Positions 12,554-37,007 of a stretch of DNA of 61,556 bases are shown in pieces. Source of the DNA: Marivita sp. (GTDB lineage: Bacteria > Pseudomonadota > Alphaproteobacteria > Rhodobacterales > Rhodobacteraceae); assembly GCF_022763305.1 (NCBI RefSeq), contig NZ_JALEGT010000053.1, positions 1 through 61,556 on the forward strand, written 5' to 3'. Both the position numbers and the translations under genes were made by a program. Numbering within the stretch: position 1 is the first letter of the stretch; each line of letters begins with the position of its first letter. Under the pieces are notes generated by a model. The model was given only the letters and a program-made list of their open reading frames with translations, ran no database searches and was not told where the DNA came from.

Positions 12554-12780
12554 TGCGCGGGTCTCCTTGGCTCTGACGTTCCTAGGGCAGGGCGGGGTTG
12601 GTCTCAAGGTGTTTCGAATGGGCTGCGCCCATCCGAGGGATGCGAGGGGCATCGTCCATTGTTCTTGAACCAATGGCGAACAATTCCCGATCCCTCGCGC
12701 TCCCCGGAGTTTATCCGGCAAGATGAAGGAGCGCAGTTTTCGGCTTGAAGACGTGGGCGCGCAGGTCTACGTCTTGCCCT

Positions 12781-12860: not shown

Positions 12861-12911
12861 GGTCTGGATACGCTCCTGCTTTGCCCTCTCGCCGCAAAAC
12901 AGGAGGATGCC

Positions 12912-21875: not shown

Positions 21876-22481
21876 TCAGGCTTCGGGATGGGTCGCCACC
21901 ATGCTGTCGCGTGTCGAGAACGTGTCGAACCACGCCGCCAGCGCATCGCGCCCGGTGCGCCAGGCCCGCGCGTCATGGCGCAGGTCGAGATATCCCAGCG
22001 CGCAGGCCACCGCGATATGCCCCATGTCCAGACGCCCGTTGAGATGGCTCATCCAGCGAGTGTTGATCGCATCCAGCGCACGGGAAACCTTGCCCCACTG
22101 CCCCTCGACCCAATCCATCATGACCTTCTCCTCGGGGCGGAACCGGGTTTCATAGACCATCAGCACCGCCGCATCGAGAATGCCATCCGCCGTCGCCTCC
22201 AACGTCAGTGTGTCCCAGATCCGGTGTTCGGGATAAAGCCCGGCATTTGCCCGCGCATCGAGGAACCGGCAGATCACCCGGCTGTCATAGATCGCTGGCG
22301 CATCCGGACGGATCAGCGCCGGGATCTTGCCCATCGGATTCGCCGCGATCAGCTTGGAATCAGGCGACAGCGGTGTGCTGGTCACGTTCACATGTTCGAT
22401 GTCGTCATATTGCCCGGTTTCGTGCAGCGTCACGAGAACCTTGCGGACAAAGGGCGATGGCCCCGATCTGAGAAGTTGCAT
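21876..22481 (-). CDS. Glutathione S-transferase family protein
   Basis: This 201-residue protein has a thioredoxin-like N-terminal domain (MQLLRSGPSPFVRKVLVTLHE), the cis-Pro region NPMGKIPALI near residue 49, and the YDSRVICRFLD segment that binds glutathione. An all-helical C-terminal domain follows. SPFVRKV suggests a serine rather than a tyrosine near the thiol. Bacterial members detoxify electrophiles or act as dehalogenases or peroxidases; the reaction is not deducible. It is alone between psd and a twin-palindrome element. A glutathione synthetase gene occurs far away in the window. Confidence 0.88.
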   Translation of the reverse strand: MQLLRSGPSPFVRKVLVTLHETGQYDDIEHVNVTSTPLSPDSKLIAANPMGKIPALIRPDAPAIYDSRVICRFLDARANAGLYPEHRIWDTLTLEATADGILDAAVLMVYETRFRPEEKVMMDWVEGQWGKVSRALDAINTRWMSHLNGRLDMGHIAVACALGYLDLRHDARAWRTGRDALAAWFDTFSTRDSMVATHPEA

Positions 22482-22549
22482 CAGCCTGCTCCCTGTTTGG
22501 TCTGCTGCCAGCTAATCCCGTCGCGCTCCGATTGCCAAGCCGCGTGTCA

Positions 22550-22592
22550 CGATGCGTCGACGCATCGCCTCTTTCCGTCGACGGAAAGAGGC
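22550..22592. repeat. Twin GTCGAC palindrome, copy A
   Basis: Two perfect palindromes abut. The distal one is 18 bp (22550-22567, half-arm CGATGC then GTCGAC). The proximal one is 26 bp (22567-22592, half-arm GCCTCTTTCC then GTCGAC). Cores start 21 bp apart. The pair begins 3 nt after the stop of the PaiB-like gene (minus strand) and has no T-tract. Confidence 0.9.
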
Positions 22593-22595
22593 CGC

Positions 22596-23216
22596 TCACA
22601 ACACCGGCGGATCCGCCATCAACGCAGCCAGCGCCTCAAGCTCGCTGCCCATCCCGCCAGGCACCTGAACCGCCGCGCGCTGCCGAACCGCGTCGTCCTT
22701 GTTCTGGCCAAGCTTCCACGTCGCTGCGATCTCCTCCACCACCATCCGGCAGGGCACGATCATCCGCATCATCCGCTCCAGAACCTCTGGCGTCATCTTG
22801 CCGGTGGTCCACGGCGTCTTTCCCGCCAGCCGGTTCTCGTAGAAGGCGGACTGCACATCCAGCACCTCGCGCATTTTACCATGTGGTAAAAGTTCCAGAA
22901 CCCCGGTCAGGTGTACCGCCACATAGTTCCACGTTGGCACCTGATCCACGACCCCGTACCAATCCGGCGAGATATAGGCATCCGGCCCCGTCACCGCGAT
23001 CCGAGCAGGGCGCGGCCCGCTCAACGCCCGCGCAATCGGGTTGGACCGCACCAGATGGATCAGCACCTCGCGCCCATCCTCGGACAGCAGAACCGGCACA
23101 TGCGCCACCATCGGCACAGGATCGCCATTCATCACCAGAGTGCCAAACCCCCGCTCGCGGACAAAGGCGATGTCCTTGGCGTGGTCGTGACTGTGAAAGC
23201 TCGGGTTGGGGTGCAT
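22596..23216 (-). CDS. FMN-binding negative transcriptional regulator (PaiB family)
   Basis: This 206-residue protein has the PaiB/FMN-binding split-barrel fold. Features include MHPNPSFHSHD at the N-terminus, GFGTLVMNGDPVPMVAHVPVLL, and the highly conserved VPTWNYVAVHLTG block near residues 101-113. A helix containing KMTPEVLERMMRMIVPCRMVVEEI follows. PaiB was described as a regulator in Bacillus, but the fold suggests a flavin- or heme-dependent oxidoreductase-like role, so the true function is open. No PaiA acetyltransferase is next to it. A twin palindrome follows its stop by 3 nt. Confidence 0.88.
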   Translation of the reverse strand: MHPNPSFHSHDHAKDIAFVRERGFGTLVMNGDPVPMVAHVPVLLSEDGREVLIHLVRSNPIARALSGPRPARIAVTGPDAYISPDWYGVVDQVPTWNYVAVHLTGVLELLPHGKMREVLDVQSAFYENRLAGKTPWTTGKMTPEVLERMMRMIVPCRMVVEEIAATWKLGQNKDDAVRQRAAVQVPGGMGSELEALAALMADPPVL

Positions 23217-23297
23217 GGCATTGGCTCAGGACTGGAAACGCCCCCGATCTGGCACAACCGAAACCAAAAATCCCGCCCTGAATTGTACCCGAAACAA

Positions 23298-24224
23298 TCA
23301 TCCCGCCTTGGGATGCGTCGCCTCGTAGACCTTCATCAGATGCACCGTATCGACCGAGGTATAGGCCTGCGTTGTCGACAGGGACGCATGGCCCAGCAAT
23401 TCCTGAATCGCCCGCAGATCACCGCCCGCCGACAGCAGATGCGTCGCAAAGCTGTGCCGCATCGCATGTGGCGTCGCGGTGGCGGGCAGACCCAACTGCA
23501 TCCGCGCCTGTTCCGTCACTTTCTGCACCAGCCTAGGGTTCAACGCCCCGCCACGCGCGCCGCGAAACACCGGCGCATCCGGCTCCATGTCGAACGGGCA
23601 CAGCGTCACATAGGTCGCCACCGCCTGCCGCGCGACGGGCAGAACCGGGACCACCCGTTCCTTGCCACCCTTGCCGATGATCCGCACCGCCTCGCCCAAA
23701 GGCAGGTCACGCCCCGTCAGCCCCAACGCTTCGGAAATCCGCAGGCCACAGCCATAGAGCAGCGTCACCACCGCCATGTCCCGAGCGCCGACCCAGTCTT
23801 TCTGCGCCTGCTGACCCACCGTGTCGATCATCTCGCGCGCGGCATCCTCGCTCAGCGGACGGGGCAGCTTTTTCTGGAACTTGGGCGCACGGGTCGACAG
23901 CACGGCTGTCGGCTCGAACCCCTCCCGCTCCGCCAGCCAGCGATAGAAGGATTTGACCGCCGAAAGCTTGCGCGCAAGCGATCGCGGACTGGCCCCACCG
24001 CTGCGCGTGTGCGCCATCCACGCCCGCATGTCAGGCACGGTGATCCGCGCCAGGGGCGCCAGCCCCTGCGCCTCGCCCTTGTAGTCTGTCAGGAACGCGA
24101 TGAAATCCACTACGTCGCCGCGATAGGCGATCAGCGTGTTCTCGGCTGTCCCGTTCAGTGCCCGGCTCGAAGCGAGCCACCCCTCCAGCGCGTCCCGCGC
24201 CGCCGGAGAGATCATCAGGCTCAT
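23298..24224 (-). CDS. xerC: Tyrosine recombinase XerC
   Basis: This 308-residue tyrosine recombinase resolves chromosome dimers at dif together with XerD. The catalytic residues are all visible: Arg162 in GCGLRISEA, the lysine of GKGGKER near 185-188, His253 and Arg256 in HAMRHSF, His279 in LLGHAS and nucleophile Tyr288 in TTQAYTSV. The N-terminal SAM-like domain spans about residues 10-110. It overlaps the DUF484 gene by 4 nt, the linkage seen for chromosomal xerC in many proteobacteria, which argues against a phage or island integrase. Confidence 0.95.
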   Translation of the reverse strand: MSLMISPAARDALEGWLASSRALNGTAENTLIAYRGDVVDFIAFLTDYKGEAQGLAPLARITVPDMRAWMAHTRSGGASPRSLARKLSAVKSFYRWLAEREGFEPTAVLSTRAPKFQKKLPRPLSEDAAREMIDTVGQQAQKDWVGARDMAVVTLLYGCGLRISEALGLTGRDLPLGEAVRIIGKGGKERVVPVLPVARQAVATYVTLCPFDMEPDAPVFRGARGGALNPRLVQKVTEQARMQLGLPATATPHAMRHSFATHLLSAGGDLRAIQELLGHASLSTTQAYTSVDTVHLMKVYEATHPKAG

Positions 24225-24925
24225 GACAGCCAGCGCCGCATCTGGCGCTCGAACACACCGGTGAAAAAGGTCAGAAGGTCCGTGCCCTGCTGCGGTGTGA
24301 ACTGATGCGGGTCTTCCGCCCCCATCACCAGCAACCCCGGCAGACGCCCTGGCCCGAAATCCAGTTTTAGACAGGCTTCCGAGCGGATCCAGTCCGCCTT
24401 GTCGCCGTAGATCTCGCGTGCGCCAGTCTCGACCTGCCGCAGCGTGACCTGCCGGGGTGGCGCATTACGCCCGGTGCTGACATACGCGTCGATGAAGCCG
24501 GGGGCCGCCACAGACAGCACTGATCCCAGCCGTTTGATCGCCGGGTCTTCGTCGTTCTGCACCGATTCCAGCACAAGCTTGATGACATCGACCCGCAGAA
24601 TCTCGGCCACGTCGCCGCCCAGATCGCGCAGGAAGGATTCGAACTCCACCGGGTCGAGCATCCGCAGGATCGCGCGATGCACCTGATTGGTGCCCGCAAG
24701 GTTCTCGTAGGCGGCTGCAATCACCGACCGGTGGGTGTCTTCCAACCGGTCCAGACGGGCCTCGAGTCGGTCCATCGCGATGCCGCGCAGGTCGACGATA
24801 TTGCCGCCCATCGCACGTTCATTCGCGGCGATCAGGGCGCGCATCAGGTCCTGATCCTCGAGAATCACGTCAGGGCGCGTCATGATCGTTTCGCGCAGGT
24901 CGTCGTCGATACGGGGGCTGCTCAT
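24221..24925 (-). CDS. DUF484 family protein
   Basis: This 234-residue protein of the DUF484 family starts with a helical segment containing RPDVILEDQDLMRALIAANERAMGGNIVDLR. A GAF-like domain follows, ending in GLLVMGAEDPHQFTPQQGTDLLTFFTGVFERQMRRWL. The family is nearly always just upstream of xerC, as here with a 4-nt overlap, but its role is unknown. Cytoplasmic location is expected, as there is no signal or membrane segment. An inverted repeat (24979-25006) lies in the region before its start. Confidence 0.9.
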   Translation of the reverse strand: MSSPRIDDDLRETIMTRPDVILEDQDLMRALIAANERAMGGNIVDLRGIAMDRLEARLDRLEDTHRSVIAAAYENLAGTNQVHRAILRMLDPVEFESFLRDLGGDVAEILRVDVIKLVLESVQNDEDPAIKRLGSVLSVAAPGFIDAYVSTGRNAPPRQVTLRQVETGAREIYGDKADWIRSEACLKLDFGPGRLPGLLVMGAEDPHQFTPQQGTDLLTFFTGVFERQMRRWLS

Positions 24926-24978
24926 GCCATCCTCAGGGTCTTTTGTTTGCGGGACAGTATCAGGGGTGGCACAGAGAT

Positions 24979-25006
24979 GCCCGCATTTTTTCGATCAAAT
25001 GCGGGC
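24979..25006. repeat. Inverted repeat upstream of the DUF484-xerC genes
   Basis: The 10-bp perfect arms GCCCGCATTT (24979-24988) and AAATGCGGGC (24997-25006) enclose an 8-nt spacer. It lies 53 bp before the DUF484 start and downstream of tal. It could be an operator for DUF484-xerC or a second stem-loop ending the tal transcript; no T-tract favours the latter. Confidence 0.6.
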
Positions 25007-25035
25007 AACTCGAAAAACTGTGGCAGAAGCGCAGG

Positions 25036-25079
25036 AACGCCCGTCGACGGGCGTTGAAAGCCGCGTCGACGCGGCTTTC
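25036..25079. repeat. Twin GTCGAC palindrome, copy B
   Basis: Two exactly abutting perfect palindromes are present. The distal one is 20 bp (25036-25055, half-arm AACGCCC then GTCGAC). The proximal one is 24 bp (25056-25079, half-arm GAAAGCCGC then GTCGAC). Cores start 22 bp apart. The pair begins 7 nt after the tal stop (minus strand) and is not followed by a T-tract. Confidence 0.9.
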
Positions 25080-25086
25080 TCCCGGC

Positions 25087-25740
25087 TCAGAGGATCTTGA
25101 TATTGGCCGCTGCCGCGTCCTTGACGAACTGGTCAAGACCCTTGTCCGTCAGCACGTGGCTCGCCATCGCCTTGATCACGGCGGGCGGGGCGGTGGCAAC
25201 ATCGGCCCCGATCTTGGCGCATTCGCTCATGTGATTGGCGCTGCGGATCGACGCGGCAAGGATGTTGGTCTCGAACCCGTAATTGTCATAGATTTCACGG
25301 ATGTCCGCGATCAGGTCCAGACCGTCCATGTTCAGATCGTCCAGACGCCCGATGAACGGAGAAATGAACGTCGCGCCCGCCTTGGCCGCCAAAAGAGCCT
25401 GATTGGCCGAGAAGCAAAGCGTCACGTTGACCATCTTGCCCTCGTCGGTCAGCACCTTGCAGGCCTTCAGACCGTCCCAGGTCAGCGGTACCTTCACCGC
25501 GATGTTCTCGGCGATCTCGGCCAGCTTGCGTCCTTCCGCGATCATGTCCTCGGCCTTGAGCGCCACCACTTCGGCAGAGACCGGGCCCGAGACCAGATCG
25601 CAGATCTCCTTGGTCACTTCGAGGATGTCGCGACCGGATTTCTTGATCAGCGACGGATTGGTGGTCACGCCATCGACCATGCCCAGATCGTTGAGTTCCG
25701 CGATCGCGTCGATTTCGGCTGTGTCGACAAAGAATTTCAT
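25087..25740 (-). CDS. tal: Transaldolase (small TalC/FSA-type)
   Basis: This 217-residue enzyme belongs to the short transaldolase/fructose-6-phosphate aldolase family of the non-oxidative pentose phosphate pathway. The Schiff-base lysine is Lys83 in [11 protein letters not shown], and [11 protein letters not shown] near residue 24 is the family signature. ATG 25740, with AGGAGCG upstream, gives the standard [10 protein letters not shown] start; the longer frame to 25797 is rejected. Whether it acts as a transaldolase or as an F6P aldolase cannot be settled from these motifs. It is divergent from priA. Confidence 0.93.
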
Positions 25741-25819
25741 GGCTCTCGCTCCTGTGATGGGTTGGCCTTTCCTACCGTGGGCTTTACCCCAAGACAATGC
25801 AGACGGAAACCCTCAACTG

Positions 25820-28018
25820 ATGGCGCTAACATCCAGCTATTTCGATGAAGGCGCGCTGATCGGCGTGCTGACCACCCAGCCGTTGGACCGGGTGCTGGAT
25901 TACCGCGCGCCCGAGGGGGGCTGCCATCCGGGGGCCTTTGTCGAGGTGCCGCTTGGTCCGCGCAAGGTGCTTGGCGTCGTCTGGGGGCCGGGGCAGGGCG
26001 ATTACGACATCTCCAAGGTGCGCTCGGTGATCCGCGTGCTCGATGCCGCGCCCATGCGCGAGGAACTGATGGCGTTTCTGACCCGCGCGGGCGACTACAC
26101 GCTGACCCCGATGCCCGCGATGCTGCGGCTTGCCACCCGCGCACCGGGCCTCGGTGATCCCCCGTCGATGCGCAAGATTTACCGTCTGGGCGACAGCACC
26201 CCCGACCGCATGACCGACACGCGCACCCGCGTGCTCGACGTACTGCGCGAGATGGGGGGCCTGTCTCTGACGCTCAAGGAACTGGCCGAGGCAGCGGGCG
26301 TGACCACCTCTGTCGTCAAAGGCCTCGTAAAACAGGGGGCCGTGCGCGAGGAAGACAGCCCGCGCGACACACCCTTCCCGACGCTCGATCCGGCATATGG
26401 CGGCAAAACCCTGACCGAGGATCAAACCACCGCCGCCGCCACACTCCGAGCCTCGGTCGCCACGCGATCCTATGGCACAACCCTGCTGAAAGGCGTCACA
26501 GGGTCCGGCAAGACCGAAGTCTATCTCGAAGCGGTGGCCGAATGTCTGGCCCAAGGCCGTCAGGCATTGGTCCTGTTGCCGGAAATCGCGCTGACTGCTG
26601 AATTCCTCACCCGCGTCGATGCCCGTTTCGGCGCGAAACCCGCCGAATGGCATTCCGGCGTCACCATGACAGACCGCCGCCGCGTCTGGAAAATGACCGC
26701 CCAAGGCGGGGCGCAACTGGTCGTCGGCGCACGCTCCGCGCTGTTCCTGCCGTTCCGCGATCTGGGTCTGATTGTCGTCGATGAAGAACACGACACGTCG
26801 TACAAGCAGGAAGATGGCGTTCTTTACAACGCCCGCGACATGGCCGTGCTGCGCGCGTCGATCTGCGGCGCACAGGTGATCCTGGCCTCTGCGACGCCAA
26901 GTCTGGAAAGCTGGGCGAATGCCGACGCAGGCAAATACCGCAAACTCGAACTCACCTCCCGTTTCGGCGCGGCGGTCATGCCCAAGATGCGGGCCATCGA
27001 CATGCGCAGCGAACAACTGCCCGGGTCAAGCTGGATCTCGCCGACGTTGCAACGCGCGGTGCAACAAAGGCTCGACAACAAGGAACAGGCGCTGCTCTTC
27101 ATCAACCGGCGCGGCTATGCCCCCGTCACCATCTGCCGCGCCTGTGGGCACCAGATCGGCTGCGACCATTGCGATGCGCGGATGGTCGAACACCGATTTC
27201 TCAAACGTCTCGTCTGCCACCAATGTGGCGAGACCAAACCGATGCCCAACACCTGCCCCTCCTGCGGGGCCGAAGACAAACTTGCTGCCGTTGGCCCCGG
27301 TGTCGAACGCCTTGCCGAAGAGGCGCAGACGCTCTTTCCCGATGCCCGGCTGGCGGTGTTGTCGTCGGACATGTTCGGCTCAGCCCGCGCCCTCAAGGCC
27401 GAGATCGAGACCATCGCCAGCGGTGGCGCAGACCTGATCATCGGCACACAGTTGGTCGCCAAGGGCCACAACTTCCCGCTGCTGACGCTTGTGGGCGTGA
27501 TTGACGCCGACCTTGGTCTGCAAGGCTCGGACCTGCGCGCGGCTGAACGCACGTTTCAACTGATGCGGCAGGTGGCGGGTCGGGCCGGGCGCGCTGACAA
27601 ACCCGGTCAGGCGTTGATGCAGACCTATCAGCCGGAACATCCCGTGATCCGCGCGATCCTGTCCGGGGACGAGCAGGATTTCTGGACCGCCGAAGCCGGT
27701 GAGCGCCGCAATGCGGGCGTGCCGCCCTATGGACGCCTTGCCGGGATCATCCTGTCCTCGACGGACGTGCAGGAGGTGTTCGACCTCGGCAACGCGCTGG
27801 CCCGCAACGACGCACCGCTGCGCCGTGTGGGGGCTCAGGTCTTCGGTCCGGCCCCGGCGCCTATCGCGCGGGTGCGTGGCCGCCACCGGGTGCGCCTTCT
27901 GGTCAAGGCTCCCAAGGGCACCGCGCTGCAGCCGGCGCTGGCGGAATGGGTCAAACCCTTCCGCCTCAAGGGAGAGCTGCGCATGGCGATCGACATCGAC
28001 CCGCAGAGCTTTTACTAA
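25820..28018 (+). CDS. priA: Primosomal replication restart helicase PriA
   Basis: This 732-residue superfamily 2 helicase restarts stalled replication forks. The N-terminal 3'-DNA-binding domain (residues 1-100) is followed by Walker A GVTGSGKTEVYLE near residue 225 and the DEEH box at 321-324. The zinc-binding cysteines (CRAC, CDHC, CHQC, CPSC) lie between about residues 438 and 483, and helicase motif GRAGRADKPG lies near 590. ATG 25820 gives the standard length; a far longer frame upstream to 25403 is an overlap with tal and is rejected. A twin palindrome follows the stop. Confidence 0.96.
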   Translation: MALTSSYFDEGALIGVLTTQPLDRVLDYRAPEGGCHPGAFVEVPLGPRKVLGVVWGPGQGDYDISKVRSVIRVLDAAPMREELMAFLTRAGDYTLTPMPAMLRLATRAPGLGDPPSMRKIYRLGDSTPDRMTDTRTRVLDVLREMGGLSLTLKELAEAAGVTTSVVKGLVKQGAVREEDSPRDTPFPTLDPAYGGKTLTEDQTTAAATLRASVATRSYGTTLLKGVTGSGKTEVYLEAVAECLAQGRQALVLLPEIALTAEFLTRVDARFGAKPAEWHSGVTMTDRRRVWKMTAQGGAQLVVGARSALFLPFRDLGLIVVDEEHDTSYKQEDGVLYNARDMAVLRASICGAQVILASATPSLESWANADAGKYRKLELTSRFGAAVMPKMRAIDMRSEQLPGSSWISPTLQRAVQQRLDNKEQALLFINRRGYAPVTICRACGHQIGCDHCDARMVEHRFLKRLVCHQCGETKPMPNTCPSCGAEDKLAAVGPGVERLAEEAQTLFPDARLAVLSSDMFGSARALKAEIETIASGGADLIIGTQLVAKGHNFPLLTLVGVIDADLGLQGSDLRAAERTFQLMRQVAGRAGRADKPGQALMQTYQPEHPVIRAILSGDEQDFWTAEAGERRNAGVPPYGRLAGIILSSTDVQEVFDLGNALARNDAPLRRVGAQVFGPAPAPIARVRGRHRVRLLVKAPKGTALQPALAEWVKPFRLKGELRMAIDIDPQSFY

Positions 28019-28028
28019 GGTCAGCGCC

Positions 28029-28070
28029 GGTTTTCAGTCGACTGAAAACCCGGACGCGTCGACGCGTCCG
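28029..28070. repeat. Twin GTCGAC palindrome, copy C
   Basis: Two exactly abutting perfect palindromes are present. The proximal one is 22 bp (28029-28050, half-arm GGTTTTCA then GTCGAC). The distal one is 20 bp (28051-28070, half-arm CGGACGC then GTCGAC). Cores start 21 bp apart. The pair begins 10 nt after the priA stop on the plus strand, with no T-tract. Confidence 0.9.
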
Positions 28071-28275
28071 CGCCCCCGGCATGGCGGACCGAGGCGCCGC
28101 ATGATCGCGCACATCCTGTCAAAGGGTTAATTGGTCCGATCCGGTTCCAATGTTTCGCGCGTGAAACAATAGGTCAGGTTTGGTTCCGATCCGTGTTGCG
28201 GCTCCGGGTCAACAGGGCACCCATATTTCCGGCCATGCCTTGTATGCCCTTCACCTGCATTCTACATGGGCCATC

Positions 28276-29073
28276 ATGAAGCGCTTTATCCCATTTGTTA
28301 AATCCGACCCCACAGTCGCTGTTGTTCGGATGCAAGGCACGATTGCGGCGGGGTCACGTGGGACTCTGAGCGATGCCAGCCTTCGCTCTCTGCTTGAAAA
28401 GGCGTTCCGCAAGGGCAAGCCCGCTGCCGTTGCGCTCGAGGTCAATTCCCCTGGTGGATCGCCTGTGCAAAGTTCGCTGATCGGCGCCCGCATCCGCCGT
28501 CTTGCGGATGAAACCGAAACCCCCGTCTACGCCTTTGTGGAAGACGTCGCCGCGTCGGGTGGCTACTGGATCGCCTCCGCGGCAGATGAGATTTACGCCG
28601 ACCCGGCGTCCATTCTTGGCTCCATCGGTGTCATCTCTGCCGGGTTCGGCGCGCATGTGTTCCTGCAACGGCAGGGTATTGAGCGCCGGGTCTACACGGC
28701 GGGCAAATCCAAATCCATGCTCGACCCGTTCCGTCCCGAAAGCGAAGAGGATGTCGCACGCCTGAACAGGTTGCTGGGACAGTTGCACGAGACATTCATC
28801 CATCAGGTGAAAAGCCGCCGTGGGGCCAAGCTTGCCGACAATCCCGATCTCTTCACAGGAGAGATCTGGGTTGGTCAGGGCGCGGTCGATGTCGGGCTGG
28901 CAGATCATGTCGGACACCTTGTTCCCGCGATGAAGGATCGGTTCGGTGACAAGGTCAAATTCCGCCGCTACGAACAGCGCCGCCCGTTCCTGAGCCGTTT
29001 CGGAGCGAAACTTACCGAAGACGCCCTTGGCGTCATCGAAGAACGCGCCGAGTTCGCGCGCTACGGGCTCTGA
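28276..29073 (+). CDS. S49 family serine peptidase (SohB/SppA-like)
   Basis: This 265-residue peptidase has the ClpP-like S49 fold used to degrade signal peptides or membrane-protein fragments. The nucleophile fits Ser94 in DVAASGGYWIA, and the general base fits Lys144 or Lys146 in TAGKSKSML. ATG 28276 starts MKRFIPFVKSDP. There is no obvious strong signal peptide, so membrane association is uncertain. The upstream frame to 28180 has no family-like residues. It is followed 1 nt later by a small Cys-rich protein gene and then a Ca/Na antiporter, which suggests one operon. Confidence 0.92.
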   Translation: MKRFIPFVKSDPTVAVVRMQGTIAAGSRGTLSDASLRSLLEKAFRKGKPAAVALEVNSPGGSPVQSSLIGARIRRLADETETPVYAFVEDVAASGGYWIASAADEIYADPASILGSIGVISAGFGAHVFLQRQGIERRVYTAGKSKSMLDPFRPESEEDVARLNRLLGQLHETFIHQVKSRRGAKLADNPDLFTGEIWVGQGAVDVGLADHVGHLVPAMKDRFGDKVKFRRYEQRRPFLSRFGAKLTEDALGVIEERAEFARYGL

Positions 29074-29074
29074 C

Positions 29075-29242
29075 GTGATTTCCAAGATCGTCCTTCTCTT
29101 CCTCGTCTTCATCGCCGTGCTTGCCATGTTCGGGAAACTGCGCGTGCCGGGTGCAAAGCGTCTGGCCAGTGCTAAGTGCCGCAACTGCGGGCGCTATCGT
29201 ATCGGCAAGGGGCCATGCCCCTGCAGCGGAAAGGCAAGCTGA
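29075..29242 (+). CDS. 55-residue membrane microprotein with a Cys4 zinc-ribbon-like tail
   Basis: A GTG at 29075, 1 nt after the S49 gene, opens a 55-residue frame. It begins with a hydrophobic helix (residues 4-19, KIVLLFLVFIAVLAMFG) followed by a basic linker. The short tail contains CRNCG and GPCPCSG, four cysteines that could bind one zinc. Its stop is 1 nt before the ATG of the antiporter gene, so it is translated between two real genes with almost no gaps, which argues strongly that it is coding. I do not recognise a named family; a small membrane adaptor is plausible but unproven. Confidence 0.75.
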   Translation: MISKIVLLFLVFIAVLAMFGKLRVPGAKRLASAKCRNCGRYRIGKGPCPCSGKAS

Positions 29243-29243
29243 C

Positions 29244-30197
29244 ATGCTGATGATCTGGGGCGGTGTCGTCATCGGGCTCGTGATCCTGCTGCTGGCCGGC
29301 GATGCGCTGGTCAAGGGTGCGGTCAACCTGTCGCTGCGGATCGGTATTCCGGCGCTGATCGTCAGCCTGACGGTGGTCGCCTTCGGCACTTCTGCACCAG
29401 AGCTGCTCATCTCGATCAAGGCGGCGATGGAGAATGTCCCCGGCATCGCGCTGGGCAATGTCGTCGGCTCCAACACCGCAAACATTCTTCTCGTTCTGGG
29501 CATCCCCGCGCTGCTGGCTGTCATGCATACCAGCGAATGCGACACGCGGAAAAGCTATGTCATCATGCTGGGCGCGTCGGTGCTTTTCATCGCGCTGGCC
29601 TTTCGCGGTGTGTTTGACTGGATCGCCGGGATCGGACTGCTGGTCGCATTGGCCGTCATCCTTGGCGACTCCATCCGGGAAGCTCTGGCGCACCGCCGGG
29701 CGGGCAAGGAGGCAGAGGCTGAGGAAGAACCCGAAGGCGCCGATCCCGACATGCCGTGGTGGAAGATCCTCGTCTATCTGGCGCTCGGTCTGGTCGGGTT
29801 GCCGCTGGGCGCAGACCTCCTGATCGACAGCTCGGTCCAGATTGCCACGATGTTCGGCGTCAGCGACACCGTGATCGGCCTGACACTTGTTGCACTGGGC
29901 ACGTCGCTGCCGGAACTGGCGACCACGGTCATGGCTGCACTGCGCCGTCAGGCGGATGTTGCGCTGGGCAACGTGATCGGGTCGAACATGTTCAACCTGT
30001 TGGCCATCATCGGCGTCGCGTCCCTGATTGCGCCGATCCCGGTTGCCCCAGAATTCCTGAGCTTCGATCTCTGGGTCATGCTGGGCGCGTCGCTTCTGAT
30101 CTTCCCGCTGGTTTTCCTCGCCAAGGATCTGACCCGCCTGTGGGGCGTGGTCTTGTCGGCGCTTTATGTGGGCTACATTGCGCTTGTCATCATGTAA
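29244..30197 (+). CDS. Calcium/sodium antiporter (CaCA family, YrbG-like)
   Basis: This 317-residue membrane protein has the two inverted NCX repeats that form the ion-binding site: FGTSAPELLISIKA with GNVVGSNTAN in the first half, and LGTSLPELATTVMA with GNVIGSNMFN in the second. About ten membrane segments flank a charged loop (EAEAEEEPEGADPD near residue 155). It should exchange Ca2+ or Na+ (possibly K+-dependent) across the inner membrane. The start ATG 29244 is 1 nt after the preceding stop; the frame to 29121 is rejected as it overlaps the microprotein. Confidence 0.93.
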   Translation: MLMIWGGVVIGLVILLLAGDALVKGAVNLSLRIGIPALIVSLTVVAFGTSAPELLISIKAAMENVPGIALGNVVGSNTANILLVLGIPALLAVMHTSECDTRKSYVIMLGASVLFIALAFRGVFDWIAGIGLLVALAVILGDSIREALAHRRAGKEAEAEEEPEGADPDMPWWKILVYLALGLVGLPLGADLLIDSSVQIATMFGVSDTVIGLTLVALGTSLPELATTVMAALRRQADVALGNVIGSNMFNLLAIIGVASLIAPIPVAPEFLSFDLWVMLGASLLIFPLVFLAKDLTRLWGVVLSALYVGYIALVIM

Positions 30198-30212
30198 GCG
30201 CGAGGCAGACCA

Positions 30213-30992
30213 ATGAGCAAAGCACTGATCACAGGCGCAGGCAAACGGCTGGGGCGCGCGATGGCGCTGTACCTGGCCGATCGCGGGTTCGACATTGCAG
30301 TGCATTATGCGTCATCCGGCGATGCGGCCGAGGAAGTCGCAGAAATGATCCGCGCCAAAGGGCGGCGCGCCTGCACCGTGCAGGCGGACCTGTTGAACGA
30401 AGACGAAACACAAGCGCTGGTCGGAGCTGCGATTGACGGCATCGGCGGCCCGCTGGAGGTGCTCATCAACAACGCCTCGATCTTCGAATACGACAACATC
30501 GGAACGGCGACGCGCGAGAGCTGGGACCGGCATCTGGAAAGCAATCTGCGCGCCCCCTTCGTGCTCACCCAGCATTTCGCGGCGCAACTGCCGGAGCCCG
30601 AAATCGACGACATGAACGAACCGGTGGCACCGGGTCTGGTCGTCAACATGATCGATCAGCGGGTGCGCAAGCTGACACCGGAGTTCATGACCTATACGAT
30701 TGCGAAGATGGGGCTGTGGGCCTTCACACAGACGGCGGCACAGGCGCTGGCCCCCGCCTGTCGCGTGAATGCGATCGGTCCCGGGCCGACATTGCGCGGG
30801 GGGCGCCAGAGCGAGGCGCATTTCGCCAAGCAGCGTGCGGCGACCGTTCTGAAACGCGGATCGAATACCTCCGACATCACCGGCGCGCTGGGCTATTTTC
30901 TCGATGCGCCGGGGGTCACAGGGCAGCTGCTCTGCGTGGACGGCGGACAGCATCTGGGATGGCAGACACCAGACGTGATCGGGGTCGAATGA
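30213..30992 (+). CDS. SDR-family reductase, PTR1/FolM-like pteridine reductase
   Basis: This 259-residue short-chain dehydrogenase has the nucleotide-binding TGAGKRLGR at residues 7-15, HYASS at 31-35 and NNAS at 86-89. The usual catalytic serine position is aspartate (Asp148 in NMIDQR), followed by Tyr161 and Lys165. The Asp-Tyr-Lys arrangement with 13-residue spacing and the GxxKRLGR motif match pteridine reductase PTR1/FolM, which reduces dihydrobiopterin or dihydrofolate with NADPH. The functional assignment is inference; family membership is secure. It starts 15 nt after the antiporter stop and may share its transcript. Confidence 0.85.
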   Translation: MSKALITGAGKRLGRAMALYLADRGFDIAVHYASSGDAAEEVAEMIRAKGRRACTVQADLLNEDETQALVGAAIDGIGGPLEVLINNASIFEYDNIGTATRESWDRHLESNLRAPFVLTQHFAAQLPEPEIDDMNEPVAPGLVVNMIDQRVRKLTPEFMTYTIAKMGLWAFTQTAAQALAPACRVNAIGPGPTLRGGRQSEAHFAKQRAATVLKRGSNTSDITGALGYFLDAPGVTGQLLCVDGGQHLGWQTPDVIGVE

Positions 30993-31304
30993 TGCCCCGC
31001 AAAAGCAAGTTTTGCACCGCTCACATTGACGTTACGAAAGCGTTACGAAAGTGTTAATGTTTTCAGTAACTTGTTGCGGGCCTGAGAAAATTTTGCATTA
31101 AATCAAAGGCTTATAATTATGCCTAAAAATTGTGCAAATCAGAGAGGGTGCCGAAATACAAAGGAAAATCCCTGACGTCCAAAACTTCTCCGCAGACTTA
31201 TCCACAGAAACCGTGGATGTCTTAACAGTTGCATCGGTGGGGGCGATGGGGCAGCGAGAGGGGAGAATCGCGGAAACCGAAAAAGGTTGTCAACTTGGGC
31301 TGAC
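30993..31304. other. AT-rich gene-free gap upstream of uvrC with iteron-like repeats
   Basis: These 312 bp hold no gene. A small hairpin (GCAAAA 30999-31004, TTTTGC 31010-31015) follows the SDR stop. GTTACGAAAG occurs at 31031 and 31042, and a third GTTA at 31053, an 11-bp periodic direct repeat. An AT-rich tract with a TATAAT (31112-31117) follows, then a DnaA-box match at 31198. It is probably the uvrC control region; a replication role is not shown. Confidence 0.65.
31198..31206 (+). promoter_or_regulatory. Consensus DnaA box
   Basis: TTATCCACA matches the consensus DnaA box exactly. An inverted partner sharing only the GTGGAT core (31213-31218) lies 7 nt downstream of ATCCAC, making a 6-bp inverted repeat. 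The match is exact but binding is untested. Confidence 0.5.
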
Positions 31305-33173
31305 ATGACGGGCGAAACTGACACGAAAACCGTAACTGGATACCCGTGTATCCAGAGGTACCTGAAGACACTGGACTCGAGTCCCGGCGTGTACCGGATG
31401 CTCGATGCGCAGGCGCGGGTGCTCTATGTCGGCAAGGCTCGGAACCTGCGGGCGCGGGTGTCGAACTACTCGCGACCGTCACCCCAGCATTCGGGCCGGA
31501 TCTCGCGGATGATCTCGGAAACCGCGTCGATGATGTTCCTGACGACGCGCACCGAGACCGAGGCGCTGCTGCTCGAACAGAATCTCATCAAACAGCTCAA
31601 GCCGCGGTACAACGTGCTCCTGCGGGACGACAAGTCGTTCCCCAACATTCAGGTGACGGACCACCCGTTCCCGATGATCCGCAAGCATCGCGGGGCAAAG
31701 AAGGACAAGGGTGCGTATTACGGACCCTTCGCCAGCGCGGGTGCGGTCAATCGGACGCTGAACCAGTTGCAGCGCGCATTCCTGCTGCGCAACTGTTCGG
31801 ATGCGATGTTCGACAGCCGGACACGACCCTGTCTGCAGTACCAGATCAAACGCTGTTCCGCGCCCTGTGTGGGCAAGATCAGCGAGGCCGAGTATGCCGC
31901 CAGCGTGAAGGATGCCGAACGGTTCCTGTCGGGCAAATCCACCAACGTGCAGGAGACCTTGGCCAAGGAGATGGCCGAGGCGTCCGAGGCGATGGAGTTC
32001 GAACGCGCTGCCGCTTTGCGCGACCGCATCCGCGCGCTGACGCAAGTGCAGACGGCGCAGGGGATCAATCCGCGCGGTGTCACCGAGGCGGATGTGATCG
32101 CGCTGCATCTGGAAAAGGGACAGGCCTGCGTTCAGGTCTTCTTCATCCGGGCGAACCAGAACTGGGGCAACCGCGATTTCTATCCGCGTGTCGGCCCGGA
32201 TGTAGAAGAGGCCGAAGTGCTGGAGGCGTTCCTTGGCCAGTTCTATGACACCAAGGAGCCACCCAAGCTGATCCTGCTGTCACATCCGATCGAGAACGAA
32301 GACCTGATGACCGAAGCCCTGTCAGACAAGTTGGGCCGCAAGGTCGAGATCGCGGTGCCGCGCCGGGGGGAAAAGTCCGAGCTTGTGGATGGCGCCTTGC
32401 GCAACGCGCGGGAGTCTCTGGCGCGGCGGATGGCGGAAACGGCGACACAGGGCAAGCTGTTGCGCGGCCTGGCCGAAGCCTTTGGGCTGGACGCGCCGCC
32501 GGAGCGGATCGAAGTCTATGACAACTCGCACATCCAGGGCACGGATGCAGTCGGCGCGATGATCGTCGCCGGGCCGGATGGCTTTATCAAGAACCAGTAC
32601 CGCAAGTTCAACATCAAGGGCGATGAACTCACGCCGGGCGATGACTTCGGCATGATGAAGGAGGTGCTGACCCGGCGGTTCAAGCGGTTGCTCAAGGATG
32701 ACCCGGACCGCGACAAGGGGCTGTGGCCTGATCTGCTCCTGATCGACGGTGGCGCAGGGCAGGTGTCTGCTGTGCGAGAGATCATGGTGGAATACGGCGT
32801 CGAGGACGTGCCCATGGTCGGTGTGGCCAAAGGTGTGGATCGCGATGCGGGCAAGGAGGAATTCCACCGCTCCGGAACCCGCCCCTTTGCGCTCCGTCAC
32901 AATGATCCTGTGCTCTACTTCATCCAGCGGCTGCGGGACGAGGCGCACCGTTTTGCCATCGGTACACACCGGGCGAAGCGGTCAAAGTCCCAGATGGCCA
33001 ATCCTCTTGACGAGGTGCCGGGTGTCGGAGCGGCCCGCAAACGCGCACTGCTGGCGCATTTCGGATCGGCCAAGGCGGTCAGCCGGGCGAACCTGGCTGA
33101 CCTGAAGGCGGTTGAAGGCGTCAGCGAGGCTTTGGCTGAACGGATCTACGGGTTCTTCCACGAGGCCGGCTGA
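31305..33173 (+). CDS. uvrC: UvrABC excinuclease subunit C
   Basis: This 622-residue nuclease makes both incisions in nucleotide excision repair. The N-terminal GIY-YIG domain shows [27 protein letters not shown] at residues 27-53. A UVR motif ([24 protein letters not shown]) follows, then the RNase H-like endonuclease domain with [10 protein letters not shown], and C-terminal HhH motifs ([21 protein letters not shown]). The start is uncertain: ATG 31305 is preferred, but TTG 31287 in frame is possible and neither has an ideal ribosome binding site. The stop codon lies in a hairpin loop (33161-33182). Confidence 0.94.
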
Positions 33174-33182
33174 CCGGCCTCG
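33161..33182. terminator. Stem-loop enclosing the uvrC stop codon
   Basis: A 9-bp perfect stem (CGAGGCCGG 33161-33169, CCGGCCTCG 33174-33182) has the loop CTGA. The TGA at 33171-33173 is the uvrC stop. It also lies 7 bp past the stop of the converging gene at 33189, so it may serve both. No strong T-tract follows, so efficiency as an intrinsic terminator is doubtful. Confidence 0.6.
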
Positions 33183-33188
33183 GGGCGA

Positions 33189-33605
33189 TCACTGGATCGA
33201 CAGGTCGATGTTGAAACCGCTGGTCTTGCCTGTGTCCTCGTCGCTGCCCATGTGGTAGACGCGGATCGCGTATGTGCCCTTGGACGGCAGGTCAACGGTC
33301 GTCGAATTTCCGTTCATCGAGCTGTTGTAGATCGCAACGCCATCGCTGCCCGGCGGCAGGATGTTGAAATAGACCGTCCCGTTGCCATTGCTGTCGGTCA
33401 CGGTGAGATCGACAAACATTTTCTGACCGGCATTCGCGCCGAGAAGGTAGTCGATATATTCGTCACCGATGATGGTGCCGGACACCATCGCGCCGAAATT
33501 TCCGGGGGCGAATTTCACCTCGGATTTGGTCTGGGCGGACAGGCCTGTGGCAAGGGTCAGTGCCAAAGCGGTCGCAAGAAAGCGCATAGGATTGAGAAGG
33601 GCCAT
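33189..33605 (-). CDS. Small secreted protein, PliG/PPC-like fold
   Basis: This 138-residue protein has a signal peptide (MALLNPMRFLATALALTLATGLSAQ, cleavage near residue 25). A short beta-rich domain follows, with DYLLGANAGQKMFVDLTV, VYFNILPPGSDGVAIYNSS and GTYAIRVYHM. This pattern resembles bacterial pre-peptidase C-terminal-like domains and the periplasmic inhibitors of g-type lysozyme (PliG). The assignment is by pattern recall, not alignment, and is tentative. AGGAG precedes ATG 33605 by about 9 nt. It converges with uvrC. Confidence 0.7.
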   Translation of the reverse strand: MALLNPMRFLATALALTLATGLSAQTKSEVKFAPGNFGAMVSGTIIGDEYIDYLLGANAGQKMFVDLTVTDSNGNGTVYFNILPPGSDGVAIYNSSMNGNSTTVDLPSKGTYAIRVYHMGSDEDTGKTSGFNIDLSIQ

Positions 33606-33674
33606 GAGTGAGTCTCCTGATCGGTCCACGCGAAGAGTAACCCGAGGAATCTTCCCGACAAAATTGAATCTCTC

Positions 33675-34106
33675 CTAGATCTTCAGCCCTGACAGGATCT
33701 TCCGGACCGTCTCTGCCAGAGGGGCGGGACGGTTCCGGTCATCAACGTGTACCTGAGTGAAGAACCCTTCGGCGCCGGCGGTCTCATTGTCATTGGCAAA
33801 CAGCGCGATGTCGTACCGGAAGGACGAGGTGCCGATATGGGCGATCCGGATGCCAGCCGTCAGGATGTCTGGAAAGCCCATTTCGGCATGGTAGCGGCAG
33901 CCGCTTTCGACCACGAGAAAGCGCGTTGCGTTGGGGCCTCGGATCTCGATGCCCTGATCCATTTGCCAGAGGCTGACAGCGGTATCGAAAAGCGCGTAAT
34001 ACGTGGCGTTGTTCAGATGTCCGTATTCGTCATTGTCCTGCCATCGCGTCGGCAGGGTGCGGAAAGCGCGGTACTCCGCGCGGGTTCCGGGCGGCGTTCG
34101 GGCCAT
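33675..34106 (-). CDS. Acyl-CoA thioesterase (4-hydroxybenzoyl-CoA thioesterase type)
   Basis: This 143-residue hotdog-fold protein has the motif RWQDNDEYGHLNNATYYALFD near residue 21, where the aspartate is the catalytic residue of the 4HBT class. It should hydrolyse short or aromatic acyl-CoA in the cytoplasm; the substrate is unknown. The ATG at 34106 overlaps the stop of the TIGR02186 gene by 1 nt (TGATG), so it is translationally coupled at the end of the TSUP cluster. The longer upstream frame to 34550 is rejected. Confidence 0.88.
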   Translation of the reverse strand: MARTPPGTRAEYRAFRTLPTRWQDNDEYGHLNNATYYALFDTAVSLWQMDQGIEIRGPNATRFLVVESGCRYHAEMGFPDILTAGIRIAHIGTSSFRYDIALFANDNETAGAEGFFTQVHVDDRNRPAPLAETVRKILSGLKI

Positions 34107-34867
34107 CAGCCGGATCGCATCAGGCGGAAGGCGGCGGACGCGCCCCATCCTGCCGCGATGGCGATGGCTAAGGACAGAAGCCCGTAAACCAGCGGCTGCT
34201 GTCGCGACAGGTTGTAGAGCCAGCGCTCGAGTCCGACCTTGCGGACGTCGATGCTGGTTTCGTATTTCGACACGACCTTGCCCCCGCGCGTCAGGAAGAC
34301 ACGTGTCGCGTATTCCCCTTCTGTCAGGTTCGCGGGCATCTGAATTGCCGTATTGAACAGGGTCGACTCCCGCAAATCCACCGCGCCTTCGGCCAGCACA
34401 TAGAGACCGTTTTTCATGCGGATGCGGACCAGCGCGTCGATGAATTCCTGCGGATTGGCCACCTGCGACCAGGCCCCGATCGACCGGATGCGGCGCGGGA
34501 TCGATACGTTGTGGCGCAGGTCGTCGGCTTCGTTGATGACATCGCCCCATGGTGCAGAGGTGGCGATGGCATAAAAGCTGGGGGCGGCCGAGACATCCAT
34601 CGCCGCGGCGTTGACCCAGATGCCCAGCACGCGGTCCTTGCGTCGGACGGTGATCGGTTCCTGTGGGCCTGCAATGGTCACGATGACCTGCAAAGGCTGA
34701 TCGAGCGGGATGGGGGTTTCCCGCTTGATGGCGCCATAGATGATGATTTCCGATCCGTCGAAATTGGTCGAGATCGACACCTGGTCCTGGCTCAGGCCCA
34801 AAACGACCTCTTCTGCCCGCAAGGGGGCTGCCAGGGCAATCAGAAGCAGGAGAAGCCGGATCAACAT
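34106..34867 (-). CDS. TIGR02186 family membrane-anchored protein
   Basis: This 253-residue protein has a signal peptide (residues 1-18, LRA-E), a periplasmic domain starting EEVVLGLSQDQVSISTNFDG, and one C-terminal membrane segment (PLVYGLLSLAIAIAAGWGAS). It matches the alphaproteobacterial family TIGR02186/Alph_Pro_TM, which is regularly encoded next to TauE/SafE permeases. Here it overlaps the TSUP stop by one base. A role as a periplasmic partner of the permease in sulfur-compound export is inferred from this linkage only. Confidence 0.9.
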   Translation of the reverse strand: MLIRLLLLLIALAAPLRAEEVVLGLSQDQVSISTNFDGSEIIIYGAIKRETPIPLDQPLQVIVTIAGPQEPITVRRKDRVLGIWVNAAAMDVSAAPSFYAIATSAPWGDVINEADDLRHNVSIPRRIRSIGAWSQVANPQEFIDALVRIRMKNGLYVLAEGAVDLRESTLFNTAIQMPANLTEGEYATRVFLTRGGKVVSKYETSIDVRKVGLERWLYNLSRQQPLVYGLLSLAIAIAAGWGASAAFRLMRSG

Positions 34868-35781
34868 CAGTGACCTCCCGCCGTGCCGATGGTGAACAGT
34901 TCCGAAGGCTGGATCAGCAGATCGAGCGCCAGCTTGCCACAGACCGCGAGCACCATGATCGCGAGCAGGATGCGCAACTGTTCGGCCTTGAGCTTTGCCC
35001 CGATCACCGTGCCGATCTGGGCCCCGACCACGCCACCGATCAGCAGCAGAACGGCCAGCACCATGTCCACGGTATAGTTCGTGGTGGCGTGCAGCAGCGT
35101 CGTGAAGCCAGTGACGAAAATGATCTGGAACAGCGATGTGCCCACAACCACCTTGGTGGGCATTCCCAGAAGGTAGATCATCGCCGGCACCATGATGAAC
35201 CCACCGCCGACACCCATGATCGCGGCCAGAATACCCACCGCAATGCCCACGATCACCGGCGGGATCACCGAGATGTAGAGACCGGAGGTGCGGAAGCGCA
35301 TCTTGAAGGGCAGACCGTGAATCCAGTTGTGCTTCTTACGCTTTGGCGCGGCACCCGAGCGCGTCTTGCGGATCGCGTTCAGGCTTTCGACGAACATCAG
35401 CGATCCGATGACGCCAAGAAAGACGACGTAGCAAAGCTTGACCAGCAGATCGACCTGACCGAGGCTTTTCAGGTAGTTGAAGACCCAGACACCAAGGCCC
35501 GCGCCGATCAGACCTCCGACCAGCAGCACCGTTCCCATCTTGAGGTCGACCGTCTTGCGCCTGAGATGCGCCAGAACGCCGGAAAACGAGGACGCGACGA
35601 TCTGGTTCGCTTCGGTCGCCACCGCCACCGCCGGCGGGATACCGATGAAGAACAGCAGCGGGGTCATCAGAAAGCCCCCGCCGACCCCGAACATGCCCGA
35701 CAGAACACCGACGATCCCGCCAAGGCCCAGCAGCAGGAAGGCATTGACCGAAATCTCGGCGATGGGGAGGTAGATCTGCAT
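34867..35781 (-). CDS. TSUP family (TauE/SafE) permease, copy 1
   Basis: This 304-residue membrane protein has about eight to nine hydrophobic segments. It carries the two repeated TSUP glycine motifs, GMFGVGGGFLMTPLLFFIGIPP near residue 30 and IMGVGGGFIMVPAMIYLLGMP near 195. TSUP proteins export sulfite or organosulfonates. The ATG at 35781 gives MQIYLPIAEISVN; the frame to 36873 beyond it is spurious. It is translationally coupled to TIGR02186. A very similar paralogue of identical length lies 149 bp upstream. Confidence 0.92.
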   Translation of the reverse strand: MQIYLPIAEISVNAFLLLGLGGIVGVLSGMFGVGGGFLMTPLLFFIGIPPAVAVATEANQIVASSFSGVLAHLRRKTVDLKMGTVLLVGGLIGAGLGVWVFNYLKSLGQVDLLVKLCYVVFLGVIGSLMFVESLNAIRKTRSGAAPKRKKHNWIHGLPFKMRFRTSGLYISVIPPVIVGIAVGILAAIMGVGGGFIMVPAMIYLLGMPTKVVVGTSLFQIIFVTGFTTLLHATTNYTVDMVLAVLLLIGGVVGAQIGTVIGAKLKAEQLRILLAIMVLAVCGKLALDLLIQPSELFTIGTAGGH

Positions 35782-35930
35782 GTTATTCTGTAGCCTCAAG
35801 GACTTTGCGGTTTCAAGCGTCGAAGGCGCCCATGCCCAGTGACCCAGCGGCGCAGTCCGGTTCGTGTCGTCATGGGCTGGCCCGCGACTGAACGGGTGGT
35901 CCGCCCGCATGGCGACAGGAACCGCCGCCA

Positions 35931-36845
35931 TCACGACGCCACCCCATCCGTCAGCGAATAGAGGTCGGAGGGCTGGAGCTTGAGGTCGATCGCCAGCTTG
36001 ACGCAGACAAGAAGCACCAGCCCGGCCAGAAGGATGCGCAACTGTTCGGCCCTGAGCTTGGCGCCGACAATCGCACCGAATTGCGCGCCGACTACGCCGC
36101 CGATCAGCAAGAGCAGAGCAAGCAGGATATCGACGGTATAGTTCGTCGTCGCATGCAGAAGGGTCGTGAAGGCGGTGACGAAGATGATCTGGTAGAGCGA
36201 TGTGCCGACGACGACCTTTGTGGGAATGCTCAGCAGGTAGATCATCGCGGGAACCATGATGAAACCACCGCCGACCCCCATGATCGCCGACAACACACCG
36301 ACCAGCAGCCCCACGAGCAGCGGGGGAATGACCGAGATGTAAATCCCCGACACCCGGAACCGCACCTTGAACGGCATGCCGTGGACCCAATTGTGTTTGC
36401 GCCGCTTCGGCGCGACGCCGCGGTTGGACCTGCGCAGCGCGTTCAGGCTTTCGATGAACATCAGGCTGCCGACCACGCCAAGGAAGATGACGTAGCAGAG
36501 GTTGACCATCAGATCGACCTGTCCGAGCGACTTGAGGAAGTTGAAGACATACACCCCCAGCGCGGACCCCATGAGACCCCCGGCCAAAAGCACGCTGCCC
36601 ATGCGGAAATCCACGTTGCGTCTTCGGATATGCGGCAGCAGGGCCGAGACAGAAGAGCCGACGATCTGGTTGGCCGAAGTCGCGACCGCGACGGCGGGCG
36701 GGATGCCGACGAGAAACAGAAGCGGGGTGATCAGAAAACCACCGCCCACGCCGAACATGCCGGACAGCATCCCCACAAGACCGCCCAACCCCAACAGCAG
36801 GAAGATGTTTACGGAGACTTCTGCAATGGGAAGGTAGATCTGCAT
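35931..36845 (-). CDS. TSUP family (TauE/SafE) permease, copy 2
   Basis: This 304-residue paralogue of the neighbouring permease has the same architecture: MQIYLPIAEVSVN start, GMFGVGGGFLITPLLFLVGIPP, the KKHNWIHG-like motif as RKHNWVHGMPFKVRF, and IMGVGGGFIMVPAMIYLLSIP. The C-terminal tails differ most. ATG 36845 is chosen because it matches the partner's start. The pair looks like a tandem duplication in which only copy 1 kept the overlap with TIGR02186. Whether the two form a heteromeric or divergent exporter is unknown. Confidence 0.92.
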   Translation of the reverse strand: MQIYLPIAEVSVNIFLLLGLGGLVGMLSGMFGVGGGFLITPLLFLVGIPPAVAVATSANQIVGSSVSALLPHIRRRNVDFRMGSVLLAGGLMGSALGVYVFNFLKSLGQVDLMVNLCYVIFLGVVGSLMFIESLNALRRSNRGVAPKRRKHNWVHGMPFKVRFRVSGIYISVIPPLLVGLLVGVLSAIMGVGGGFIMVPAMIYLLSIPTKVVVGTSLYQIIFVTAFTTLLHATTNYTVDILLALLLLIGGVVGAQFGAIVGAKLRAEQLRILLAGLVLLVCVKLAIDLKLQPSDLYSLTDGVAS

Positions 36846-36946
36846 ATTCGTGCTTAGTCGCATCCGGACACACGTTTCAAGCGAAGCGGTGCCGCAGGTG
36901 CGAAAAGGACCTAACGGTGGCGGTCAACTGGACTTAGCAAAGGGCG

Positions 36947-36990
36947 CGGGTGATGCGTCGACGCATCACCCGTTTCCGTTGACGGAAACG
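36947..36990. repeat. Twin GTCGAC palindrome, copy D
   Basis: The distal palindrome is 26 bp (36947-36972, half-arm CGGGTGATGC then GTCGAC). The proximal one is 20 bp (36971-36990, half-arm CGTTTCC then GTTGAC), overlapping by 2 bp. Cores start 21 bp apart. An outer pairing GGGCG (36942-36946) with CGCCC (36989-36993) could close both stems into a three-way junction. It lies 17 nt after the stop of the gene at 37008. Confidence 0.9.
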
Positions 36991-37007
36991 CCCGCTTAAC
37001 CCGGCTG

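Follow-up and report, generated by a model that had tools for sequence, protein, structure and literature searches.

Repeats resembling the repetitive extragenic palindrome (REP) are common and their role is disputed. REPs that carry a GTAG tag and go with REP-associated tyrosine transposases (RAYTs) are short dispersed hairpins, paired, sometimes arrayed as bacterial interspersed mosaic elements (BIMEs), and located at the 3′ ends of genes (PMC12306157); stop-proximal REPs of Escherichia coli, according to the same source, number 260 of 496 by an earlier count and 446 of 4,072 by RepRanger. CGTC-tagged REPs, as described in PMC3733652, have stems of 8–9 bp and loops of 4–5 nt, commonly form dimers with partners mostly 20–100 bp apart, lie near gene 3′ ends and have no transposase link; abutting dimers (1–2 bp) are reported there for the Wolbachia CGTC-4 and O. 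terrae GTAG families. Here we describe four twin-hairpin elements of REP-like character in a 61,556-nt stretch of Marivita sp. (contig NZ_JALEGT010000053.1 of assembly GCF_022763305.1; "the window" denotes this whole stretch). They belong to a repeat family defined by two abutting stems, a distance of 21–22 bp between stem centres, two unlike stem sequences and a position just past a stop codon.

Twin hairpins as a repeat family

Element 1 (22550–22592, minus strand) joins palindromes at 22550–22567 and 22567–22592 and begins 3 nt past the stop codon of a gene at 22596–23216 (minus strand). Element 2 (25036–25079, minus strand; 25036–25055 and 25056–25079) follows the tal stop codon by 7 nt, element 3 (28029–28070, plus strand; 28029–28050 and 28051–28070) that of priA by 10 nt, and element 4 (36947–36990, minus strand; 36947–36972 and 36971–36990, one loop being TTGA) that of an ABC permease gene by 17 nt. 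Palindrome lengths are 18 + 26, 20 + 24, 22 + 20 and 26 + 20 bp, overlaps 1, 0, 0 and 2 bp, total lengths 43, 44, 42 and 44 bp, and centre distances 21, 22, 21 and 21 bp, respectively. Re-measurement bore out the positions, lengths, overlaps and 3–17 nt stop-codon distances of the first-pass annotation, as well as its count of seven GTCGAC cores and one GTTGAC core; the GTTGAC-cored hairpin of element 4 combines a fully paired stem with an asymmetric loop rather than forming a perfect palindrome. Other perfect palindromes of at least 14 bp in the window number four, each 14 bp long (shuffle expectation: 5.4 of 14 bp per window). A twin-stem test on 200 shuffled windows returned three pairs in total, placing the four twins far above chance. 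As RNA, the elements have stable predicted folds (z = –4.45, –4.25, –4.28 and –4.47 for elements 1 to 4).

A search of the window's own genome (G000; 4.43 Mb in 121 contigs) for two GTCGAC hexamers separated by 12–24 nt gave 26 matches. Of these, 18 are twin palindromes at a centre spacing of 21 or 22 bp (one with a broken arm), and the other eight are chance pairs without arms. Adding the fourth window element to these 18 gave an alignment of 19 twins in which standard pairs filled 99.6% of 285 pair cells, a perfection that is partly a selection effect because the set was chosen by its cores. Sixty-four cells were changed on both sides, and no standard pair was changed on one side only. The covariation score of the alignment was reached by none of 500 shuffles and was destroyed by shifting the partner by 1–3 columns. 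A covariance model found 120 matches in G000 at E values up to 1 (both strands, overlapping places counted). With the central four bases ignored and centre distances of 19–25 bp accepted, a plain twin detector called 79 twins in 276 kb of G000 around matches, as opposed to three in one shuffle. Their centres were 21 bp apart in 54 cases, 22 bp in 23, and 24 and 25 bp in one each; dropping six rows (four with TTCGAA cores, two chance) left 73 twins, 53 spaced by 21 bp and 20 by 22 bp.

The central four bases of the corresponding 146 hairpins were TCGA in 72, TTGA in 30, TCAA in 18 and one of 14 rarer forms in 26. The GTCGAC core by which the elements had been recognised is the commonest loop, TCGA, together with its closing pair. 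It is not a conserved feature: orthologous copies change the loop while both stems stay paired. Arms recur in the family (GATGC/GACGC and TTTCC), and the two common stem types were found 49 times paired vs. six times solo, and 46 times paired vs. seven times solo, with about one solo hairpin of each type looking real by eye. Pairing is hence nearly obligatory. When the loop of the TTTCC hairpin is not TCGA, it is mostly TTGA as read from GATGC to TTTCC, independently of gene direction, and this loop is perhaps a subfamily mark of common descent. BIME-like tandem arrays of twins with repeated spacers occur in G000 at C100:28530–28779, C100:20711–20965, C113:78780–79028 and C44:108255–108700; the period is 67 or 103 bp in C100 and C113, and the C44 array carries other cores, e.g. 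ATCGAC and CTCGAG. A second twin type with TTCGAA cores and 22–24 bp spacing is present at C87:104064 and 104133 and at C112:25516 and 25561.

That the four elements share one design held up genus-wide. In a model search of 41 genomes, all 17 Marivita genomes matched (13–125 matches each); among the other 24, one (G018) was strong, with three matches, and three had one or two marginal matches. At E 1e-6, eight of 394 genomes of the family (as grouped by the search tool) matched, and six of these eight belong to other genera. Scanning named genomes for the pattern yielded 23 stretches, and every one with a stated genus was Marivita, which NCBI taxonomy places in Roseobacteraceae, Rhodobacterales. 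Little weight attaches to the family-wide GTCGAC pattern scan, whose control gave similar counts in many genomes.

REP/BIME elements had been proposed as the nearest general idea, and in the broad sense the twins agree with it, being many dispersed extragenic palindromes 3′ of genes that are sometimes arrayed. Unlike GTAG/RAYT REPs, they consist of two unlike perfect stems at a fixed 21–22 bp, with many arm sequences in one genome and rare mismatches that show no G-U preference. Nor do they carry the tag: GTAG stood at three of 328 twin ends (one of 328 in the reverse sense) and GGAG at 16. G000 has no RAYT-type gene, as the Y1 transposase (Pfam PF01797, Y1_Tnp) was absent from 13 of the 16 genus genomes searched, G000 among these 13. 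It was present in G005, G009 and G014, where seven partly overlapping loci of ~3 kb around the Y1 genes held no twin. Mobilisation by a RAYT is accordingly not supported. With CGTC-tagged REPs the twins share stem and loop size (7–8 pairs modelled, often more, and a loop of 4 nt), the dimeric layout, nearness to gene 3′ ends and the lack of a transposase link, but terminal CGTC was found at only six of 328 ends, or 26 of 328 in the reverse sense, counted without a shuffled control. No Rfam family matched the twins at its gathering score, either in a scan of the window, which returned only a riboswitch and a tRNA, or in a permissive search of 22300–37300. In the open-access literature, we recognised no paper describing such a twin element among the matches listed.

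Position at gene ends and conservation of the stems

The survey of positions relative to genes covered 187 Marivita stretches (partly overlapping; 1.49 Mb summed), many of them picked for holding elements, with coding frames called by our own codon-use script instead of annotation. A coding stop lay at most 60 nt before 163 of 202 distinct twins, compared to 1028 of 7389 random positions (13.9%) in the same stretches. The 3′-end bias seen in the window is thus strong across the genus; for strong twins, the count was 141 of 164. Stop distances, measured to the nominal 10-bp arm, fell at 0–20 nt in 168 of 207 cases and peaked at 5–10 nt. Forty-four of the 163 stop-near twins had a coding stop on both sides.

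Twins recur behind orthologous genes. One is present behind the permease gene in 15 of 17 Marivita genomes, behind priA at ten of 16 loci (plus one remnant, L199) and behind tal at ten of 16 loci, counts that omit four score-passing rows judged by eye not to be twins (L173, L206, L207 and L208). Behind the permease gene, many different loops are combined with nearly the same stems. Element 1 has orthologs in a close relative (G001) and in further genomes; element 2 is lacking at the tal locus of G001. Of 77 G000 twins tried against G001, alignment succeeded for 26; eight resisted placement, and for 43 the parts of G001 compared offered no usable match. The twin was kept at 24 of the 26 alignable sites. 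Substitutions were counted at 23 of the 26, omitting one site in an array and those of tal and priA, the latter carrying an expansion. They amounted to 12 of 644 positions in stems (1.9%), nine of 184 in loops and 149 of 1325 in flanks (11.2%; coding sequence included), i.e. stems changed ~6-fold less than flanks. Three pairs were changed on both sides and six on one side. Over 270 comparisons of hairpins with their nearest orthologs, the difference was 12.4% in stems, 18.8% in loops and 27.7% at third codon positions of the upstream genes. Because stems differ less than loops, flanks and third codon positions, they are under selection, or actively corrected, more than the loop. At the 3′ end of priA in G001 (L194), the second hairpin contains an internal 8-bp expansion that is itself palindromic, so that the longer arm is still paired.

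A possible role on the transcript and its alternatives

The reading we favour, with a probability of about one half, is that the twins are a REP-like, mostly inherited family of 3′ untranslated region (UTR) hairpin pairs that may act on the mRNA just downstream of the stop codon. Once transcribed, a twin would make up the start of the 3′ UTR and fold into two abutting stem-loops. Stable hairpins stop 3′ exonucleases, and a tandem barrier behind the stop codon could block 3′-to-5′ exonucleases trimming from a downstream, perhaps Rho-dependent, end. Additionally or instead, it might slow ribosome clearance, as reported for E. coli, where stop-proximal REPs stall ribosomes (as cited in PMC12306157). 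The family would first have spread by copying of a founder pair (arms GATGC/GACGC and TTTCC), the present copies being mostly inherited. New perfect arms may come from DNA-level rewriting, through hairpin-templated switching in replication, after which mismatches of any kind would be selected against.

Several observations weigh against this reading. What would tie the twins to an RNA-level role is their position alone, and stem-loops in bacteria in general concentrate at gene 3′ ends, as reported in PMC1590033; what is distinctive beyond that general preference is the strict pairing, the spacing and a perfection free of sequence. Thirty-nine of the 202 twins had no coding stop nearby, many of them, by eye, in tandem arrays and some being chance detections. 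The element is lacking at some orthologous genes and is therefore not essential to them. In another genome of the family (G344), only 34 of 77 multi-hairpin clusters were near a stop; this set is mixed, as only 40 of the 77 have at least two TCGA hairpins. Moreover, there is no clear excess of G-U over A-C mismatches, which constraint on RNA only would normally leave.

The mismatch counts bear on the level at which the stems are maintained, with the reservation that they are small, come from overlapping sets and include some decaying copies and chance rows. In unidirectional twins, stems read on the transcript strand held eight G-U and nine A-C mismatches in 1666 cells, and further, partly decayed copies (with a few chance-looking rows) 17 and 13 in 826 cells. 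Two overlapping sets of ortholog comparisons gave 26 G-U vs. 33 A-C and 33 vs. 33. In a subset of the surveyed stretches, terminator-like hairpins had 29 G-U vs. 17 A-C (shuffled control: 8 vs. 10), a noisy comparison given 105 such sites vs. 42 in shuffles. Compensated pair changes comprised 16 transitions vs. 30 transversions, and 40 vs. 105 in a larger set that overlaps the first and includes hairpins differing at many pairs; both ratios are near the one-third transitions expected for random replacement of Watson–Crick pairs. Flanks, by comparison, had 71 transitions and 78 transversions. Mismatches and paired changes without a G-U route hint that maintenance might be strand-symmetric and DNA-level, e.g. 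by template switching. The pattern would fit a process that rewrites one arm from the other in a single step, as described in PMC8794818, or a function for which the DNA must fold back perfectly, and is compatible with an RNA function, too.

A rival reading, which we consider unlikely, places the constraint on the DNA itself. The palindromes might form cruciforms, or hairpins in single-stranded DNA, that serve supercoil release or are recognised by a nucleoid protein or a structure-specific enzyme; or they might simply be perfected by template switching. Their place behind stop codons would then be merely tolerated. In favour of this reading are the lack of a G-U preference in sense-oriented stems, compensated changes without bias to a G-U route, and a balanced order of the stem types with respect to the gene (10 vs. 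9 by eye, with the host gene at convergent sites chosen by hand). Template switching, in the account of PMC8794818, can make and keep perfect Watson–Crick stems with paired changes, the very features of the twins. However, that account concerns a mutational process rather than an element family, and its strongest mark, loop inversion, was not seen in the G001 alignments inspected by eye. DNA-level constraint also leaves the strong stop-proximal location unexplained, and the low substitution rate of the stems relative to flanks means that mutation alone is insufficient. Two further candidates were rejected. An outer helix around both hairpins, seen in folds of elements 2 and 3, found no parallel in the family, where flank pairing of at least 5 bp occurred in 14 of 164 twins vs. 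23.2 in shuffles (sd 4.4). A protein-binding dyad site as the main idea was dropped because quite different arms are perfectly palindromic and the centre varies.

Alternatively, the twins could be non-canonical intrinsic terminators, two adjacent hairpins stopping RNA polymerase without a U-tract, and doing so bidirectionally between convergent genes. Clusters of mostly two hairpins near stop codons, with a dispensable poly-U, are proposed as terminators in PMC8355165, and both the location just past stops and the 44 of 202 twins flanked by coding stops on either side would suit this. Yet the Marivita twins, unlike the clusters described there, form a repeat family with fixed spacing, of a uniformity well beyond what termination would seem to require, and a separate terminator can follow them. 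No T-run follows any of the four window elements, and four or more T in the eight bases after the twin occurred in only one of 103 unidirectional twins. Since they have no U-tract, and since a separate conserved hairpin terminator follows the tal twin, the twins are not ordinary intrinsic terminators, as had been concluded from the window. Nor do they replace terminators: a terminator-like site lay downstream of 12 of 103 unidirectional twins, while a separate count placed one at 49 of 410 gene ends without a twin and three of 32 with one. Having no association with an absence of terminator-like sites, twins were rejected as terminator substitutes, and the non-canonical form of the idea is unlikely.

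That the twins are a selfish dispersed repeat with no host role, tolerated after stop codons, would agree with their patchiness among genera, the tandem arrays with repeated spacers and the shared TTGA loop of the TTTCC hairpin, but appears very improbable given stems that change so much less than flanks, orthologous sites that are kept and the failure to find a mobilising gene in a search covering the Y1 transposase family.

Irrespective of which reading holds, the Marivita twins offer a clean test system, with sharply defined paired stems, orthologous sites that carry or lack the element in closely related species, and stem changes that show no visible G-U route. This makes testable both the effect of stop-proximal hairpins on mRNA and template switching as a keeper of perfect bacterial hairpins.

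Related arrays, host genes and other features

Other genera of the family carry related arrays with other arms and spacings, in a patchy manner. In 470 kb of G344, the 40 clusters with at least two TCGA hairpins showed steps of 24 bp in 38 cases, 22 bp in 23 and 23 bp in 14, and six of 20 runs of at least three hairpins kept exactly 24 bp throughout. This genome (L239–L242, L267–L286) also has runs in which as many as six unlike palindromes follow one another, often at 24-bp steps, besides TTCGAA twins recurring about every 105 bp (L274, L267) and TCGCGA-cored twins (L268:1771). TTCGAA pairs were abundant in only a few genera (G344, G223, G100 and G240) and missing from most; any match was found in 87 of 394 genomes, many of these single and probably chance. 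A broader idea, tentative and rather unlikely, is that all of these are self-perfecting palindromes: unlike perfect hairpins, set in pairs or phased arrays, with arms of almost free sequence, which a strand-symmetric DNA process together with selection would keep perfect and which the cell would read as structure, rather than sequence, at gene ends. The same design (with other arms; GTCGAC, TTCGAA and TCGCGA cores; 22–24 bp; up to six hairpins) might then have appeared or spread in genera scattered across the family.

Within the window, the gene preceding element 1 (22596–23216, minus strand) encodes an FMN_bind_2 protein (Pfam PF04299, E 1e-39), which we take to be PaiB-like. Element 2 follows the transaldolase gene tal (25087–25797, minus strand; Pfam PF00923, E 7.6e-61), and element 3 follows priA (25403–28018, plus strand; Pfam PriA_C, PriA_3primeBD and Zn_ribbon_PriA), whose open reading frame is listed from a TTG and probably contains the true start further inside. 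The host of element 4 is the ABC transporter permease gene at 37008–37973 (minus strand; Pfam PF02653, BPD_transp_2, E 1.3e-35).

Downstream of element 2, a separate terminator-like tal hairpin was read by eye at 24978–25007 (minus strand). Its T-tract is weak in the window genome (ATCTCTG) and reads ATCTTTTT in several relatives. The hairpin (GCCCGCA...TGCGGGCATC) lies further downstream in 11 of 16 genomes, eight with a twin and three without; at the remaining five tal loci, the sequence compared was too short or had diverged there.

Among other structured RNAs, a sub-threshold Rfam match to an internal ribosome entry site (IRES) model at 33989–34156 (35.3 of 60 bits) was taken as chance. 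The two hits of the Rfam scan were a tRNA gene at 4891–4962 (minus strand) and a thiamine pyrophosphate (TPP) riboswitch at 12775–12876 (plus strand; 70.3 bits).

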